From: Aurantiochytrium sp. KH105
Lineage: Eukaryota > Sar > Bigyra > Thraustochytrida > Thraustochytriidae
Assembly (NCBI GenBank): GCA_003116975.1
Contig: BGKB01000035.1
Span: 248,001 to 312,000, forward strand
Length of the DNA: 64,000 bases
Direction: 5' to 3'
The notes below the pieces were generated by a model, which did not search any database, had not been told where the DNA came from, and was given only the letters and a program-made list of their open reading frames with translations. The first letter of the stretch is position 1. Each line of letters starts with the position of its first letter. A program made the position numbers and the translations under genes. Below, piece after piece: positions 36,704 to 44,994 of this stretch.

Positions 36704-37774
36704 TCAGAGCTTCGTTTGGGCACCGCGCACGCGATGAAGAAGGTCTTCCCCAGCAAAGTGAGGTGATCCATTGCCTTCGGCGGCTTTAACGAGGGCAATG
36801 AGTTCAGTGTTAACCTTGGGCTCATCAATTCCGTGAGCTTTGGCAACGCGGGTAATCTCGCCGTTGAGGAGGTCGATCTCGGTAAGACGACCACGCTCGA
36901 GGTCTTGCAGCATGCTTGTCTTTGCAGTGGGATTGATCTTGAGAATGTATGGGAAAACAAACTTGAAGACGAGTTGCGGCAAGGCGAAAATGATAGGCAG
37001 CAGACGAATGTAGCCGCCCTTGGATGGGCTCTGCACAGAAATTCCAGCCTTGTCAAAGACCGCGAGCGCTTCGTTCATGCTGAGGACAGCGACCTTGCGG
37101 AATTCAGGATTCATGAGTGTCTCAAGAGTCGGCACGCCTGCAAGTGCGTTGATGGCGTTGCTCATGTTCAGGAGAAGCTTGCCGTACTGACGCGGAGTGA
37201 TATCTTCCTCAACCTCGACTTCAACGCCGCCTCGCGCGCACATACGAGCAAAAAGCGCGGCGTGAGGGCCATCCTGCAAGAAGGTTTCACCTGTAGAAGT
37301 CTGCGTGAATGTAGCGTCGTTCCAAATAATGTTGAAGACGAGCATGCCTGCGAGCACCGAGACGCCGTCGAGAGGGATGTTGTCACGAAGAGTTTGCGCA
37401 TTACAGACTCCGTTTTGGAGGGATACCAGGGTCCTAGGCTTGGGGTTTTCGCGGAGAATAGCGGCGAGTTCCCGGGCAACGGTCTCGGTCTGGCCGCCCT
37501 TGACCGCAACAATGATGATGTCACAGTCGGAAAGCTCCTCCATCTTATCTGTGACGACGAGGTCTTTGCCCACGCGCATCACATTCGTCTCTCCGTGCAC
37601 CGTGGCCGTCGTGAGCATGCCGCCGGCCTCTTCGACTGCCTTGAGCAGCGAGCTGCGGCCCACGAGCGTGACCTTGAGGTCCTCGACCGCTCCCTCGCCC
37701 TCATTGCCCGCCAGGATTCTGCCTCCAAAGAAGGCTCCCACCGCGCCTGCCCCGAGCACGCCCACGTGCACCAT
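36704..37774 (-). CDS. panE: 2-dehydropantoate 2-reductase (ketopantoate reductase), copy 1
   Basis: Predicted 356-residue NADPH-dependent reductase converting ketopantoate to pantoate in pantothenate (CoA) synthesis. The ApbA/PanE fold is clear. The Rossmann motif GAGAVG is at residues 8-13, the IIIVAVKGGQTE block follows the third strand, ISLQNGVCNA matches the family's LQNG motif, and YGKLLLNMSNAINALAG carries the catalytic Lys and the Asn pair. The ATG at 37774 lies directly before the first strand; an upstream in-frame ATG at 37945 would add a long basic, low-complexity leader. It ends in TKL, a weak peroxisomal-type tripeptide. It is a tandem paralog of the next gene; some PanE-like proteins reduce other 2-oxoacids, so substrate is not certain. 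Confidence 0.88.
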   Translation of the reverse strand: MVHVGVLGAGAVGAFFGGRILAGNEGEGAVEDLKVTLVGRSSLLKAVEEAGGMLTTATVHGETNVMRVGKDLVVTDKMEELSDCDIIIVAVKGGQTETVARELAAILRENPKPRTLVSLQNGVCNAQTLRDNIPLDGVSVLAGMLVFNIIWNDATFTQTSTGETFLQDGPHAALFARMCARGGVEVEVEEDITPRQYGKLLLNMSNAINALAGVPTLETLMNPEFRKVAVLSMNEALAVFDKAGISVQSPSKGGYIRLLPIIFALPQLVFKFVFPYILKINPTAKTSMLQDLERGRLTEIDLLNGEITRVAKAHGIDEPKVNTELIALVKAAEGNGSPHFAGEDLLHRVRGAQTKL

Positions 37775-38647
37775 CTTGCTTGCTTGCTTGCTTCTGCGCT
37801 GCTCTCCTGCTCTGCTCTGCTCTTGTGTTCTGCTGTGCTCGCGCTTGTTTGCTTCGCTCGCTATCTCGGGGATCGTTGCGGGACTGCTCTGCTCGCGGAT
37901 CTTGATGACGCACCGGTGACGCTTCTCGGGGGGGAGGCGTGTCATTCACCATGGCAACGTGGTCACCCTTGCCTGCGCCATGAGAAAAAGTGCAACAATC
38001 TCATCCGAGTTCATCCGTCCCGCGCCGGGTCCGCGCCGCGGCGGCGTCGCCTGGCTGCACGGGTGGCCGAGGACGGCCGCCGGGTGGGTGGAGCGGAGCG
38101 GGGCGCCTGGCAGCAGCAGCAGCAGCACGGTCGGCGGCCGGGCCGTCGAAAGGGCCGTGGCGACGCCCGGTTCGTCGCAAGCGGCTCCGAACAAGCATTT
38201 TGTGGCGCAGCAGTGGCAGCAAGCAGAGTAGGGCAAGACAGACTTTACCGCGAATGCGAGCGCGCGCAATGTGGGCGTTCACTCGGCCCGATTGTGAGGC
38301 CGCGCGGAAAAGAAGGTCACGCTGCAATAGCTGCAATAGCTGCAGCTGCTGCTGCCACCGCAAGCGAGGACCTCGAGAGAAGTCGAGAATGTTTTGTGTC
38401 AAGAGTCTTGAAGTGTAGAGACATGCAAGCAAGGAAGCAAATGCGAGAGCAACAAGAGAGGAGGGCCCATCGTTTTGTGGCCAGTCACAACAGCGGCCCC
38501 ATCCATCGAACCTGTGCGGCCTACTATAAGGGGCTGCAAGTGTCCCTTCCTCCGGCCGCTTCTCTTGTCGCTACTGCAGCTGCTGCTGCTGCTGGTGGTT
38601 ACAGCAGGGAAAAGAAAAAAACGAAATGATGTGAAAGTGAAATAAAA
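37775..38647. promoter_or_regulatory. Spacer between the tandem reductase genes
   Basis: 873 bases: the copy 1 promoter (with TCTGC pentamers at about 37805-37822) and the copy 2 3' flank. A TGCAATAGCTGCAATAGCTGCAGCTGCTGC run lies near 38323. A long + strand open frame here is a shadow of the reductase genes. Confidence 0.5.
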
Positions 38648-39730
38648 TCAGTGCTTAGCTTTTGGGGCCGGAGAGAGAAGCGAGAGTAATTGCTCACCGT
38701 CCATTTTGGGAGATCCGCGGGACTCAGCCTCCTTGACGAGACGGACGAGCGTGGCGTTGACAAAAGGCTCCTCGAGGTTGTGCTCCTTGGCGACACGGAC
38801 GATTTCGCCGTTGAGAAGGTCGATTTCAGTCGTGCGCTCTCTCTCGAGGTCTTGGAGCATGCTCGTCTTTGCCTTGGGATGAATTTTAATGACAAATGGC
38901 ATGACGATGCGGAAAAGGCAGTCGGGAAGACTAAAGAGGCGCGGAAGCATGTAAATGGATGACTTGTTGGGGCTCTTGATTGGGATTCCTGCGCGCGAAA
39001 GGACGTCAATGGCTTCATAGATGCTGAGCGCAATCGACCTGCGCAGGCCCGGATCCTTGAAGCAGTCAAGAATGGGAATACCCGCAAGGGCATTAACGGC
39101 ATTGTTCAGATTGATGAGCAACTTGCCATACTGCAGCGCGGTGATGTCCGGCTGTACGACGACGGGAATGCCTCCGCGCGTGGAGAGACGCCCAAAGAGC
39201 GATGCCTGGGGCCCATCCTGAACAACGATATCGCCCGAAGTCGTCTGGGAAAAGTCGGCGCCCGCCCAGACGACGTTGAAGACGACGCTACCGGCGAGGA
39301 CGGCGACCTTTTCGTCGTTGATGATCTCGCGCAAGATACGCGCATTGGTCACGCCATTCTGCAAAGAGATGATCGTGCGTTGGGGGCCGGCTGCGCCAGG
39401 CGAGGCGGCAAAGAGATCGCGGAGCTGCTTGGCCACGCCCTCCGTGTGCGACGCTTTGACGGCGACCAGAATGATCTCTGCGTCCGCGAGCGCGCCAACG
39501 TCCTTGGTGACGACAAAATGATCGTCTTGCACATGGTCGGCGCGCTCGCCCGCAATGGTGTGCGTGACCAGTACACCCCCGTTCGCCTCGACGGCGTCCA
39601 GCAGCGACTCGCGCCCCACCAGCGTCACCTTCAGGTCCGATACAGCCCCTTCTCCCACGTTCCCGGCGAGCAGCCGCGCGCCCACGTAGGCGCCCACGGC
39701 GCCGGCGCCCAGCACCCCTACGTGCGGCAT
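38648..39730 (-). CDS. panE: 2-dehydropantoate 2-reductase, copy 2
   Basis: Predicted 360-residue paralog of the preceding reductase, aligning over its whole length: the same GVLGAGAVGA nucleotide-binding start, LLAGNVGEGAVSDLKVTLVGR, IISLQNGVTNA and YGKLLINLNNAVNALAG with the catalytic Lys retained. The C-terminus differs (ending KAKH, no PTS1). Divergence is high enough that this is not a recent copy. The ATG at 39730 is in the family position; the upstream open frame is repeat-derived. It diverges from the enolase-like gene. Differential targeting or substrate between the copies is possible but unproven. Confidence 0.88.
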   Translation of the reverse strand: MPHVGVLGAGAVGAYVGARLLAGNVGEGAVSDLKVTLVGRESLLDAVEANGGVLVTHTIAGERADHVQDDHFVVTKDVGALADAEIILVAVKASHTEGVAKQLRDLFAASPGAAGPQRTIISLQNGVTNARILREIINDEKVAVLAGSVVFNVVWAGADFSQTTSGDIVVQDGPQASLFGRLSTRGGIPVVVQPDITALQYGKLLINLNNAVNALAGIPILDCFKDPGLRRSIALSIYEAIDVLSRAGIPIKSPNKSSIYMLPRLFSLPDCLFRIVMPFVIKIHPKAKTSMLQDLERERTTEIDLLNGEIVRVAKEHNLEEPFVNATLVRLVKEAESRGSPKMDGEQLLSLLSPAPKAKH

Positions 39731-40366
39731 CTTCTCCGCTCCAGCCCCAGGCCAGCCGGCCGTCCCGCCTCTCCTGCTCTCTGCTCTGCTCTGCTCTGCT
39801 CTGCTCTGCTCTGCTCCGCTCCGCCCCGAGTCCGCTCCGCTCGATCCCGTTCTGCAGCTGCACGTGGCCGCGGACGGCGGGATTAGTCGCCTTCTGCTGC
39901 TGCCAGTGGTGCGGCTGCTGCTTCGTTTCCTCGTCTCCTCTCCTCTCCCTCCTCTTCGACTTCGCCTTTCGACGCCCCCTCGCTTGGTCCGTCCCTCCTC
40001 ACTCTTCGTCCGGCCGCCGCACTTTGCACGCGCCGCGACCACGGTCCAGCCTGACCGACCTGCGCCGCGCCTCGACGACGGTCCAGCCTAGCCAACCTGG
40101 CCCTCCCTCCCGACCCGGACGAGCCGCGGCAGCCGCACGCAGCAGCAGCAGCTGCAGCTGCGAAGCTGCAGAGGACAGTCGAGCGAACGGCCGCGGCCGG
40201 CCTCCAAGCCGGGCTCGCTCGCGTACCTGTCGAAGGTCGAGGCACCGCGGCAGGCGTCGAAGCGCACCGTGCGCTGCGAGCGCTCTCGGGTTTGGGGCAA
40301 TCAATCGAGTCCCCGCGATGCGCAGTCCGGGATAGACGGAGGAGAGTGGCCGGCGGCGTGAGGAGG
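39731..40366. promoter_or_regulatory. Divergent promoter between reductase copy 2 and the enolase-like gene
   Basis: 636 bases, head to head, GC-rich, with a TCTGC pentamer array next to the reductase start. No gene seen. Confidence 0.5.
39778..39814. repeat. (TCTGC)n pentamer array
   Basis: About seven TCTGC units just upstream of the reductase copy 2 ATG; complement of the GCAGA arrays elsewhere in the window. Confidence 0.9.
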
Positions 40367-41509
40367 ATGCTGGGCGCGAGGCTCGCGCGCGCGGGGGGCC
40401 GCGGGGCGGCGCTGGCGGCGGCGGCGCAGAAGGCGGCGGAGGGCCGCGGGCCGCGGGGAGCGCGCGCGTTCTCGGTGCGGCTCCTCGGCGCGCGCGGCCG
40501 CGAGACTGGACGCCAAGGCGAGATCGAGGTCGCGGTGGAGACCTCGGCTGGCGACCACACGGTGACCGTGCGCGAGGCCAACCCGGCGCGGGCCGCGGAG
40601 GCCCTCGAGGGCGAGATCTCGAGGCTGATCAATGGCCTCGATCCCACGGACCAGCGCGGGGTGGACTCGCTCCTGTGCCAGATGGACGGCACCGCGGATC
40701 GGTCCGAGTTCACGCCCGGCGCCATCCTCGGCGTCTCGGTAGCCACAGCCATTGCTGGCGCACATGCAGCAGACCTTAAGCTGTTTGTTCACCTTGCCAA
40801 GCTCGCGGGAAAGTCCACACTGCGAATGCCCATGCCCATCTCGACATTGCCTTCGCTGCCCATGGTGTCCATGATCCCCTTTGGTGATACCTGTCTGCGC
40901 AACGCCATTGATCGTTTCCGTGTCATCTTGCAGGATGTCAAGGTTGCCGCAGATGGCCCCGAATTGAGTCCGAAAGCTCAGCTCCGGGCGCTCATGCGGC
41001 CACTCAAGAGCAGGGACATGCTGGGCGAGGTCGCGCTTGGCCTTCACGTTGACGCCGACACGGACCGTGAAAAGGTTGCCGAGTTCATGAATAAATTCCC
41101 GCTTGCAATGTTGCAGCTCAAGGACACTGAGGAGACGGAGGCCGAATCCCTTACGGCGGCGCTTGGCGAGGAGCTTCAGATTTTTGGTGGTCTCGAGCTC
41201 TACCAGTCTTTGGACGCAATCACCTATGCCTTGCAGAATGAGATTGTCAACAGCGTGATTGTCGATCCGGACTCTCTTGGCACCGTATCTGCCGTCATTG
41301 ACGCTGGCAATCTTGTCGAGCAGGCGCCTGGTGTTGCGACCTTGCTTTGGGACACGCACTTGCAGGCAGACTCCATGCAGGAGTTCCTTGCACATTTGGC
41401 CCTCTCGCAGTGCATCGCCGCGGTTTCTGTGGCCGACATTGACGGACCTTTTGCAAAGGAGCTTTGCTCGCTCGAAGCCTTGCTCAACCCAACATCCCCA
41501 CCAGAGTAG
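40367..41509 (+). CDS. Enolase-like protein, catalytic residues lost, mitochondrial-type presequence
   Basis: Predicted 380-residue divergent enolase-superfamily protein, against about 430 for true enolases. The first 35 residues are Arg/Ala/Gly-rich with no acidic residue before Glu, like a mitochondrial presequence. The N-terminal enolase domain is recognisable: VRLLGARGRE, then EVAVET, DGTADRSEFTPGAILGVS and LFVHLAKLAG match the LDSRGNPTVEV, DGT..KS..GANAILGVS and LY.HIA.LAG blocks. The sites needed for catalysis are changed: the SHAGN loop and its QE pair are gone, the metal ligands in the IEDP and GDD motifs read MLQL and FGGL, and the catalytic Lys of KVNQIGT reads DPDSLGT. It cannot be a normal enolase. 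A structural or regulatory mitochondrial role is inferred. The ATG at 40367 is the first in frame. Confidence 0.75.
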   Translation: MLGARLARAGGRGAALAAAAQKAAEGRGPRGARAFSVRLLGARGRETGRQGEIEVAVETSAGDHTVTVREANPARAAEALEGEISRLINGLDPTDQRGVDSLLCQMDGTADRSEFTPGAILGVSVATAIAGAHAADLKLFVHLAKLAGKSTLRMPMPISTLPSLPMVSMIPFGDTCLRNAIDRFRVILQDVKVAADGPELSPKAQLRALMRPLKSRDMLGEVALGLHVDADTDREKVAEFMNKFPLAMLQLKDTEETEAESLTAALGEELQIFGGLELYQSLDAITYALQNEIVNSVIVDPDSLGTVSAVIDAGNLVEQAPGVATLLWDTHLQADSMQEFLAHLALSQCIAAVSVADIDGPFAKELCSLEALLNPTSPPE

Positions 41510-41792
41510 ATTCTCGAGAGAAAAAGACTTGGCTTCCTTCTCCCTTATTTTTTGATGTGTAATTGAAGCTTGGGACATTTTTCTTCACAAATGGTCCTTC
41601 CAATAGCGTTGTTGCATATTCTCGATTGGGATCGTGGAGCGACAAGGGACAGTGCTCGACTGCCAATTGTCAAAAACCAAGGACAGTGTGTTTTTCATTC
41701 ACACAAATTCGAAGAGGCATGCAAATAACAAAAATCGATCCTTTTTCTTTGTGAAAGACCCTTTCCTTTTTTGGGGGCGGGGTGAAGGAATT

Positions 41793-43386: not shown

Positions 43387-44994
43387 ATGGCAGAAAGCAA
43401 ACCCACAATGGCGTCCGCACCGCCTACAGCGCCATCGACGACAGCACCAATGTCCGGAAAACAAAACCCTTCAAATGGTCTTCGAACCGATGATGATGAC
43501 GAAGTCCAAGCCATGGTGGACCGTGTGCTGATGGAAATCGCGCGCGTGGGCATCGCTGCTCCTGTAGGCACCATGTTCTCCGGTCTCGGCGCCAACGTAG
43601 GGACCTTGGCTGACAATAAAGAGGAACTTCAAGAGGTACTCACACCATTCTTCTTCGGAAGCGGGTGTCAGGCCTTTGACATGGCTGTCTCCGCCCAAGG
43701 CGGTCTCGATGTCAGCCGAGGGGCAAAGTTATCCACTCTCGGGGCCGGCGACATGTACGCGAACGTCGTCTTTGAAGAGGATACCGCGTCCATAGGTAGG
43801 TCCAAGCGCGTGCGCGCGCACAAACTCGAAGGCGCCTTCCGGTTCGGAGACTTTGTTGACATTCGCTCCATTGAAACGGTTGCAAGGGCCGTCATTCGAC
43901 AAATTGGTCTGCCACAAGCGCCGAGTATCACATCCGAAACCTTTGCTGCCTGTCTCAGGCAAGGCCTTCCTGCAGTTCACGCGATGCTCTCGCAAATTCT
44001 TTTCATGGAAGAGTCTGACATCCACGTCGCCTACGTGCCTCCCTCCGCAACGGTCAGCGAAGGATCTTCGCGTGCGATCCGTCTCGAGTTCACGGGAGTT
44101 CTCAGCATCAAAAAACTCAAACACGTGTACTATTCGCTCGACAACATTGTCCAGCACCTGAATCGTCTCAATTTAGCATTGCTACCTGCACAGGCAGGGC
44201 CAATGAGCGAGAGCGAGATGGAGGCCTATGCTGCCGAAGCCCCGGCTTTTGTCAAAGTGCATCTTGAACATCGCAGCGGGAACAGATGCAACATCTCTTT
44301 GGTTCTCTGCCTACTTGAAGGCAGCAATTCTCTTCTTTTCATGGATCAAGAGACTCTCGCACCCTGCAAAGATGCCAGTGGAAAGTTCCGCGTCGTTCCG
44401 TTCGACATGAGCCAGGCGCAGTCTTTTTATCTCCGACTTCGCATTCAGGCGCGCGTTGCCGAACTCGGATGCGCGACTTTCAATCTTCCAGAGCTCGTCT
44501 TCAAGCTTGCCAACCGTATTCCAGCGCCAGGTGCGATTCCAGAGGAGATCTTTGAGCTCACGCTTGCATACATGTCGGGCCACCACCGACTTGCCTCAAT
44601 CGCCCTTCGCCCATTTATCAACATTGACAATTTCCGCGCAGTCTTGACACAGGACTTGCATATTGAAATCGGCTGGAAGCCCAAAGCCGGCGAGGAGTCG
44701 TCCGAAGCGCTTTCCAAAGTGCCTGGTGATGCCGAAAACGCCAGCGAGGCCCAGTCATCGACCACAGCCGTGAGCGAAGGCGAGGCCGAGAAGAATCGTA
44801 TTCGTCTCGGTACCTTTGATCTCAATTTCCGCTTCAAGCTCGTGCCGCCTCGGAGTGCTGTGACGCACTGTCTTTCGTTCTTCATCAAGACACAAATCGG
44901 TCGCTTTGATTTGCTTGACTTTGTTCGGGATTTATGCACGGCAATTGGCGCCGATATTTCCGCCCTCGCGCAAAGATTAGATGCAACAAAGTGA
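43387..44994 (+). CDS. Unrecognised conserved-looking protein
   Basis: Predicted 535-residue soluble protein that I cannot assign. No signal peptide or membrane helix. Residues 1-35 are disordered (Ala/Pro/Thr/Asp). The central part (50-420) mixes hydrophobic strands and helices evenly, with features such as FFFGSGCQAFDMAVSAQGGL and LEFTGVLSIKKLKHVYYSLDNIVQHLN. Residues about 445-470 are an acidic Ser/Ala linker, and the last 60 residues form a compact end. High third-position GC across the frame and the ATG at 43387 support a real gene. The stop TGA overlaps a GTGAGT-like sequence, but the nearest CAG is too close for an intron. Confidence 0.8.
   Translation: MAESKPTMASAPPTAPSTTAPMSGKQNPSNGLRTDDDDEVQAMVDRVLMEIARVGIAAPVGTMFSGLGANVGTLADNKEELQEVLTPFFFGSGCQAFDMAVSAQGGLDVSRGAKLSTLGAGDMYANVVFEEDTASIGRSKRVRAHKLEGAFRFGDFVDIRSIETVARAVIRQIGLPQAPSITSETFAACLRQGLPAVHAMLSQILFMEESDIHVAYVPPSATVSEGSSRAIRLEFTGVLSIKKLKHVYYSLDNIVQHLNRLNLALLPAQAGPMSESEMEAYAAEAPAFVKVHLEHRSGNRCNISLVLCLLEGSNSLLFMDQETLAPCKDASGKFRVVPFDMSQAQSFYLRLRIQARVAELGCATFNLPELVFKLANRIPAPGAIPEEIFELTLAYMSGHHRLASIALRPFINIDNFRAVLTQDLHIEIGWKPKAGEESSEALSKVPGDAENASEAQSSTTAVSEGEAEKNRIRLGTFDLNFRFKLVPPRSAVTHCLSFFIKTQIGRFDLLDFVRDLCTAIGADISALAQRLDATK

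Follow-up and report, generated by a model that had tools for sequence, protein, structure and literature searches.

A single open reading frame in a 64,000-nucleotide stretch of the genome of the thraustochytrid Aurantiochytrium sp. KH105 (contig BGKB01000035.1, positions 248,001 to 312,000; the whole stretch is called the window below) encodes a protein, P0001, that is homologous to enolase beyond chance and yet is almost certainly catalytically dead. The gene is very probably functional rather than decaying, being held under purifying selection, and its product is probably mitochondrial. Taken as a whole, these properties lead us to favour, with some reserve, the view that P0001 is an imported, inactive subunit whose role is to bind. 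Enolase ranks among the most conserved enzymes, and the surprising part of P0001 is its dead site, not its location. All genome-wide statements refer to assembly GCA_003116975.1 (76,034,492 bases in 367 contigs).

Homology, fold and active site

The kinship with enolase that the original prediction had recognized is borne out by several comparisons. The Pfam profile Enolase_N matches residues 67-143 of P0001 (E 7.6e-14; 52.5 bits, cut-off 35), all 60 listed of its 67 PDB matches are enolases (best E 2e-14), and an enolase fold is seen in the structural model. Enolase_C stays under its cut-off (E 0.01; 15.6 bits against 21.5). Similarly, the NCBIfam profile eno (TIGR01060) reaches 69.5 bits (E 2e-19), under the equivalog cut-off of 300, whereas P0003, an intact enolase of the same genome, scores 533.1 bits. 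By the order of its domains (N-terminal domain, then barrel) P0001 belongs to the enolase fold family; by its TIGR01060 score, and by its metal ligands and E211/K345 pair, it falls outside the catalytic enolases. The predicted N-terminal domain comprises strands 37-47, 49-59 and 62-69 and a helix at 73-88. Of the two models, the single-sequence one has a predicted local distance difference test (pLDDT) score of 40.5 and was used for N-terminal elements only; the better one relies on 20 aligned bacterial enolases, with no orthologue of P0001 among them, and its residues 1-34 and 44-49 lie below a pLDDT of 50.

The active site was compared at ten positions that we take to be the canonical ones of enolase (S39, H159, E168, E211, D246, E295, D320, K345, H373 and K396, yeast numbering). 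Each is invariant in all 20 aligned bacterial enolases (alignment A3), which derive from 80 loci, 30 of them picked for open-frame calling and 27 yielding frames of the expected length. P0001 retains one of the ten, H373, as H331. In the MAFFT alignment, K345 is replaced by D300 (KVNQIGT reads DPDSLGT), E168 by M166, E295 by Q250, D320 by G275 and K396 by S354, and the loops carrying H159 and E211 are gaps. The D246 column is likewise a gap, filled by H227 if an ungapped register is read by eye, and S39 is paired with V57 by MAFFT, whereas the strand layout of the model, judged by eye, places the entire Ser39 loop in a deletion. At the positions of R374 and S375, which presumably help to hold the phosphate, P0001 has L332 and Q333. 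Among columns invariant in the 20 bacterial enolases, P0001 keeps 21 of 48 in the N-terminal domain (start methionine included) and 13 of 78 in the barrel.

The losses named in the original prediction, namely the catalytic lysine, the acidic metal ligands and the SHAGN/QE loop, are thus all found, and with nine of the ten canonical positions gone its pseudoenzyme reading stands. Its claim that the RG loop is kept is uncertain: MAFFT aligns R43-G44, while the strand layout of the models, by eye, favours a turn near R49. Two further points need correction. The shortfall of about 50 residues is nearer 80, the mature protein having about 345 amino acids and 24 of the 27 bacterial frames 423-428, and the copy cannot be called full-length, its catalytic loops being cut out.

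From the loss of nine canonical positions we infer a lack of enolase activity. Since the ligand positions are replaced or deleted, P0001 should bind neither 2-phosphoglycerate nor metals, which argues against a role as a sensor through that site; because no ligand site is left, binding is its likely function. One could instead imagine a new enolase-superfamily activity in the same barrel, given the fold kept in the model, the histidine at the H373 position and the purifying selection on the barrel. We consider this quite improbable: members of the superfamily need acidic metal ligands where the barrel strands end, and in P0001 these columns hold a gap or H227, Q250 and G275, with E211 and K345 gone as well.

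Selection between the two copies

The frame recognized by the original prediction is real and recurs on a second contig of the same genome (locus L002, contig C9), where it encodes a protein of 98% identity with no internal stops. A thioesterase gene adjoins both copies, and given this shared neighbour and the high identity we take the two as haplotypes. Over residues 41-380 they differ by 4 nonsynonymous and 20 synonymous changes, which gives a ratio of nonsynonymous to synonymous rates (dN/dS) of 0.063 (Fisher p 1.7e-9); the counts are small, however, with 24 changes in a single pairwise comparison. The barrel (residues 161-380) accounts for 2 nonsynonymous and 16 synonymous changes (dN/dS 0.036) and residues 41-160 for 2 and 4 (0.180), while the first 40 residues carry 5 and 1. 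The same comparison gave 0 nonsynonymous and 14 synonymous changes for the intact enolase, and 16 and 37 (0.124) for a third, degenerate enolase-type gene described below. The original supposition that the gene is retained, not decaying, agrees with these figures. Its strong divergence from enolase and its internal deletions might suggest a pseudogene in decay or an artefact of assembly; with the frame intact on two contigs beside the same thioesterase gene, and with the low ratio in the mature part, such an origin is extremely improbable and was rejected.

N-terminal leader and glycolytic enzymes of the genome

As originally noted, P0001 starts with an arginine-rich leader of mitochondrial type: residues 1-38 hold 8 arginines or lysines and 1 acidic residue. 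Helices at residues 2-8 and about 10-25 are drawn in both models at low confidence, and the motif RAF↓S (residues 33-36) stands directly ahead of the first enolase strand, in agreement with what we take to be the R-3 cleavage consensus; RAFS also occurs, in a comparable position, in a leader-bearing pyruvate kinase (PK) encoded by this genome. These features agree with a cleavable import presequence. The motif alone is weak, however, as 9% of shuffled leaders show one of its type within residues 25-45. Because of this rate, and because the G+C content at third positions of the first 100 codons (GC3) is 0.92-0.94, favouring Arg, Ala and Gly, the leader is suggestive evidence rather than proof. 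The same two figures would fit a protein of the cytosol or another organelle whose arginine-rich start only reflects a GC-rich 5' end of the gene. This appears unlikely, for the leader stops where the enolase fold starts in the model, its helix is drawn in both models (at low confidence), and it resembles the leaders of a phosphoglycerate kinase (PGK), a PK and the intact enolase.

Enolase_N matches lie at six places in the genome, which we take as three genes on two haplotypes: P0001; the intact enolase P0003 (L003 on C61 and L004 on C135), with identical protein, intact motifs and a mitochondrial-type leader; and a degenerate gene with a long acidic insert (P0005/P0006; L005 on C175 and L006 on C23), which we presume to be ENO4-like. 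P0003 is the only intact enolase gene found and bears a leader, while leaderless PGK and PK genes exist. Read without a targeting predictor, one of the two PGK genes and one of the three PK genes found carry leaders, and none is evident on the others. Lower glycolysis in stramenopile mitochondria has been published (Rio Bartulos et al. 2018, PMC6198282): in Blastocystis and Phaeodactylum lower-glycolytic enzymes, enolase included, are reported to carry mitochondrial-type leaders, and the Phaeodactylum enolase leader is among the GFP constructs tried for mitochondrial targeting. Neither "labyrinthul-" nor "thraustochytri-" occurs in the main text of that paper. Given this precedent and the leader on the only intact enolase, a mitochondrial enolase-like protein is unsurprising in this organism, and the normally cytosolic enolase that the original prediction took as its backdrop is not an apt one.

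Features of the P0001 gene (window coordinates)
Feature	Position	Strand	Basis
Putative pseudoenolase gene P0001	40367..41509	+	Single open frame from its first in-frame ATG, 380 codons plus stop, no apparent intron
Candidate mitochondrial-type presequence, residues 1-35	40367..40471	+	Composition, low-confidence helices, RAF↓S end
Enolase N-terminal domain, residues 36-153	40472..40825	+	Enolase_N match; strands and helix of the model; Ser39 loop absent by strand layout
Degenerate TIM-barrel domain, residues 154-380	40826..41506	+	Deletion of the loops with His159 and Glu211; substitutions at the metal ligands, Lys345 and Lys396; shorter C-terminal tail
VDPDSLGT, residues 299-306	41261..41284	+	In place of catalytic KVNQIGT; K345 replaced by D300

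An antisense open frame of 425 amino acids (40301-41578, minus strand) spans the whole P0001 gene and is probably a by-product of GC-rich codons. Elsewhere in the window, two adjacent ketopantoate-reductase-like genes on the minus strand (36704-37945 and 38648-39730; ApbA and ApbA_C, four of four matches over cut-off) apparently form a tandem pair, and a plus-strand open frame of 535 amino acids (43387-44994) has no Pfam match at E 0.001.

Known relatives and possible role

P0001 was compared with several enolase-like proteins. PRK08350 (NF006223), a short family that is presumably archaeal, matches residues 71-352 at 45.9 bits, with an equivalog cut-off of 624, and membership was rejected. 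P0005 aligns with chain 7n6g_6G, which we take to belong to the Chlamydomonas flagellar apparatus, from residue 14 onwards, ahead of the enolase domain, so that the two share an N-terminal extension. P0001 has no extension of this type, its fold being preceded by nothing but the leader of some 35 residues, and ENO4-type membership was likewise rejected. P0005 further differs by its long acidic insert and the absence of a mitochondrial-type leader, as against the leader and trimmed loops of P0001, and the two proteins are 18% identical. ENO4 and the flagellar enolase-like proteins (PMC7132099) nevertheless resemble P0001 as degenerate paralogues with substituted catalytic residues. The fast-evolving archaeal paralogues (branches 3 and 4; PMC4390880) share with it the pattern of a short or diverged paralogue beside an intact one. 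The stramenopile mitochondrial enolase (PMC6198282) has both the enolase fold and the N-terminal mitochondrial-type leader, but it is a working glycolytic enzyme, and its counterpart here is P0003, with its intact motifs, not P0001. Degenerate enolases are therefore already known, and what would be new is the leader, the trimmed catalytic loops and the strong barrel constraint together. By titles and abstract starts among the matches listed, the open-licence PMC literature yielded no mitochondrial pseudoenolase, nor was this combination found among the matches listed.

Pattern searches with P0001 were confirmed for 183 of 545 matches in prokaryotic genomes (the best 80 of the 183 being mostly proteobacterial by title) and for none of 27 in viral contigs. 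The best prokaryotic match, L017 (Hyphomonadaceae, 24% identity, E 2e-16), was not accepted as the origin of P0001. In a 25-row tree the branch to the P0001/P0004 pair measures 9.99 and that to P0005 measures 10; being saturated, the tree is silent on the origin of P0001.

We propose that P0001 would be imported into mitochondria and its leader cut off near residue 35, the remainder being predicted to fold as an enolase subunit with N-terminal domain and TIM barrel. The mature protein would bind neither magnesium nor 2-phosphoglycerate, would perform no acid-base chemistry, and may act as a non-catalytic binding subunit. Its likeliest partner would be the mitochondrial lower-glycolytic machinery, especially the leader-bearing P0003, which P0001 would anchor, stabilise or limit. 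The original prediction had inferred a non-glycolytic role, but a non-catalytic partnership with mitochondrial enolase may also apply. That P0001 partners lower glycolysis rather than another complex is a tentative suggestion; a role on mitochondrial enolase or its neighbours is weakly favoured by their presumed co-location and by what has been suggested for ENO4 (PMC7132099).

Besides the limits of the models, the selection test and the cleavage motif given above, several observations weigh against this proposal. Of the residues that we take to form the salt bridges of the enolase dimer, those on the barrel side are lost (R414 is S368, E417 is A371 and E404 a gap), which makes an ordinary symmetric dimer improbable. 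With upstream exons not looked for, no leader is evident ahead of the domain in any of four triosephosphate isomerase (TPI) frames, nor in five of eight glyceraldehyde-3-phosphate dehydrogenase (GAPDH) frames (L101, L102, L103, L105 and L106); L107 and L108 have a long unclassed N-terminal region, and L104 lies outside the judged frames. No TPI-GAPDH fusion was seen either, TPI being found on contigs C219, C270, C26 and C1, and GAPDH on C5, C21, C69, C138, C2, C125, C18 and C89. The leaderless frames and the lack of a fusion tell against a complete mitochondrial lower half of glycolysis.

P0001 could alternatively serve a non-glycolytic mitochondrial complex as a structural or RNA-binding subunit, for example in RNA turnover, the mitoribosome or another assembly; the degradosome and the archaeal paralogues (PMC4390880) offer precedents. 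The barrel, more diverged than the N-terminal domain (13/78 against 21/48 invariant columns) yet more constrained (dN/dS 0.036 over 18 changes against 0.180 over 6), looks as if re-used for binding. P0001 itself, however, shows no RNA-binding or complex signature, and PRK08350, broad as its match is, scores P0001 lower than the intact enolase (58.3 bits). We regard this alternative as somewhat unlikely, while noting that the imported binding subunit and its rivals are not all mutually exclusive. A more specific form of the proposal, in which a mitochondrial pseudoenolase lineage is devoted to regulating or scaffolding mitochondrial lower glycolysis without catalysing any of it, as the first such organellar enolase subunit, is speculative and on present evidence rather doubtful.

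A diatom study counted an enolase as "complete" only when more than 90% of each of the two Enolase domains was covered (PMC11371179), a filter that P0001-like copies would fail. If co-located with the active enzyme, P0001 would clearly exemplify an enolase fold retained solely for binding. A partnership with the mitochondrial enolase would be relevant to the organisation of lower glycolysis in stramenopile mitochondria; otherwise P0001 would point to a novel mitochondrial complex.
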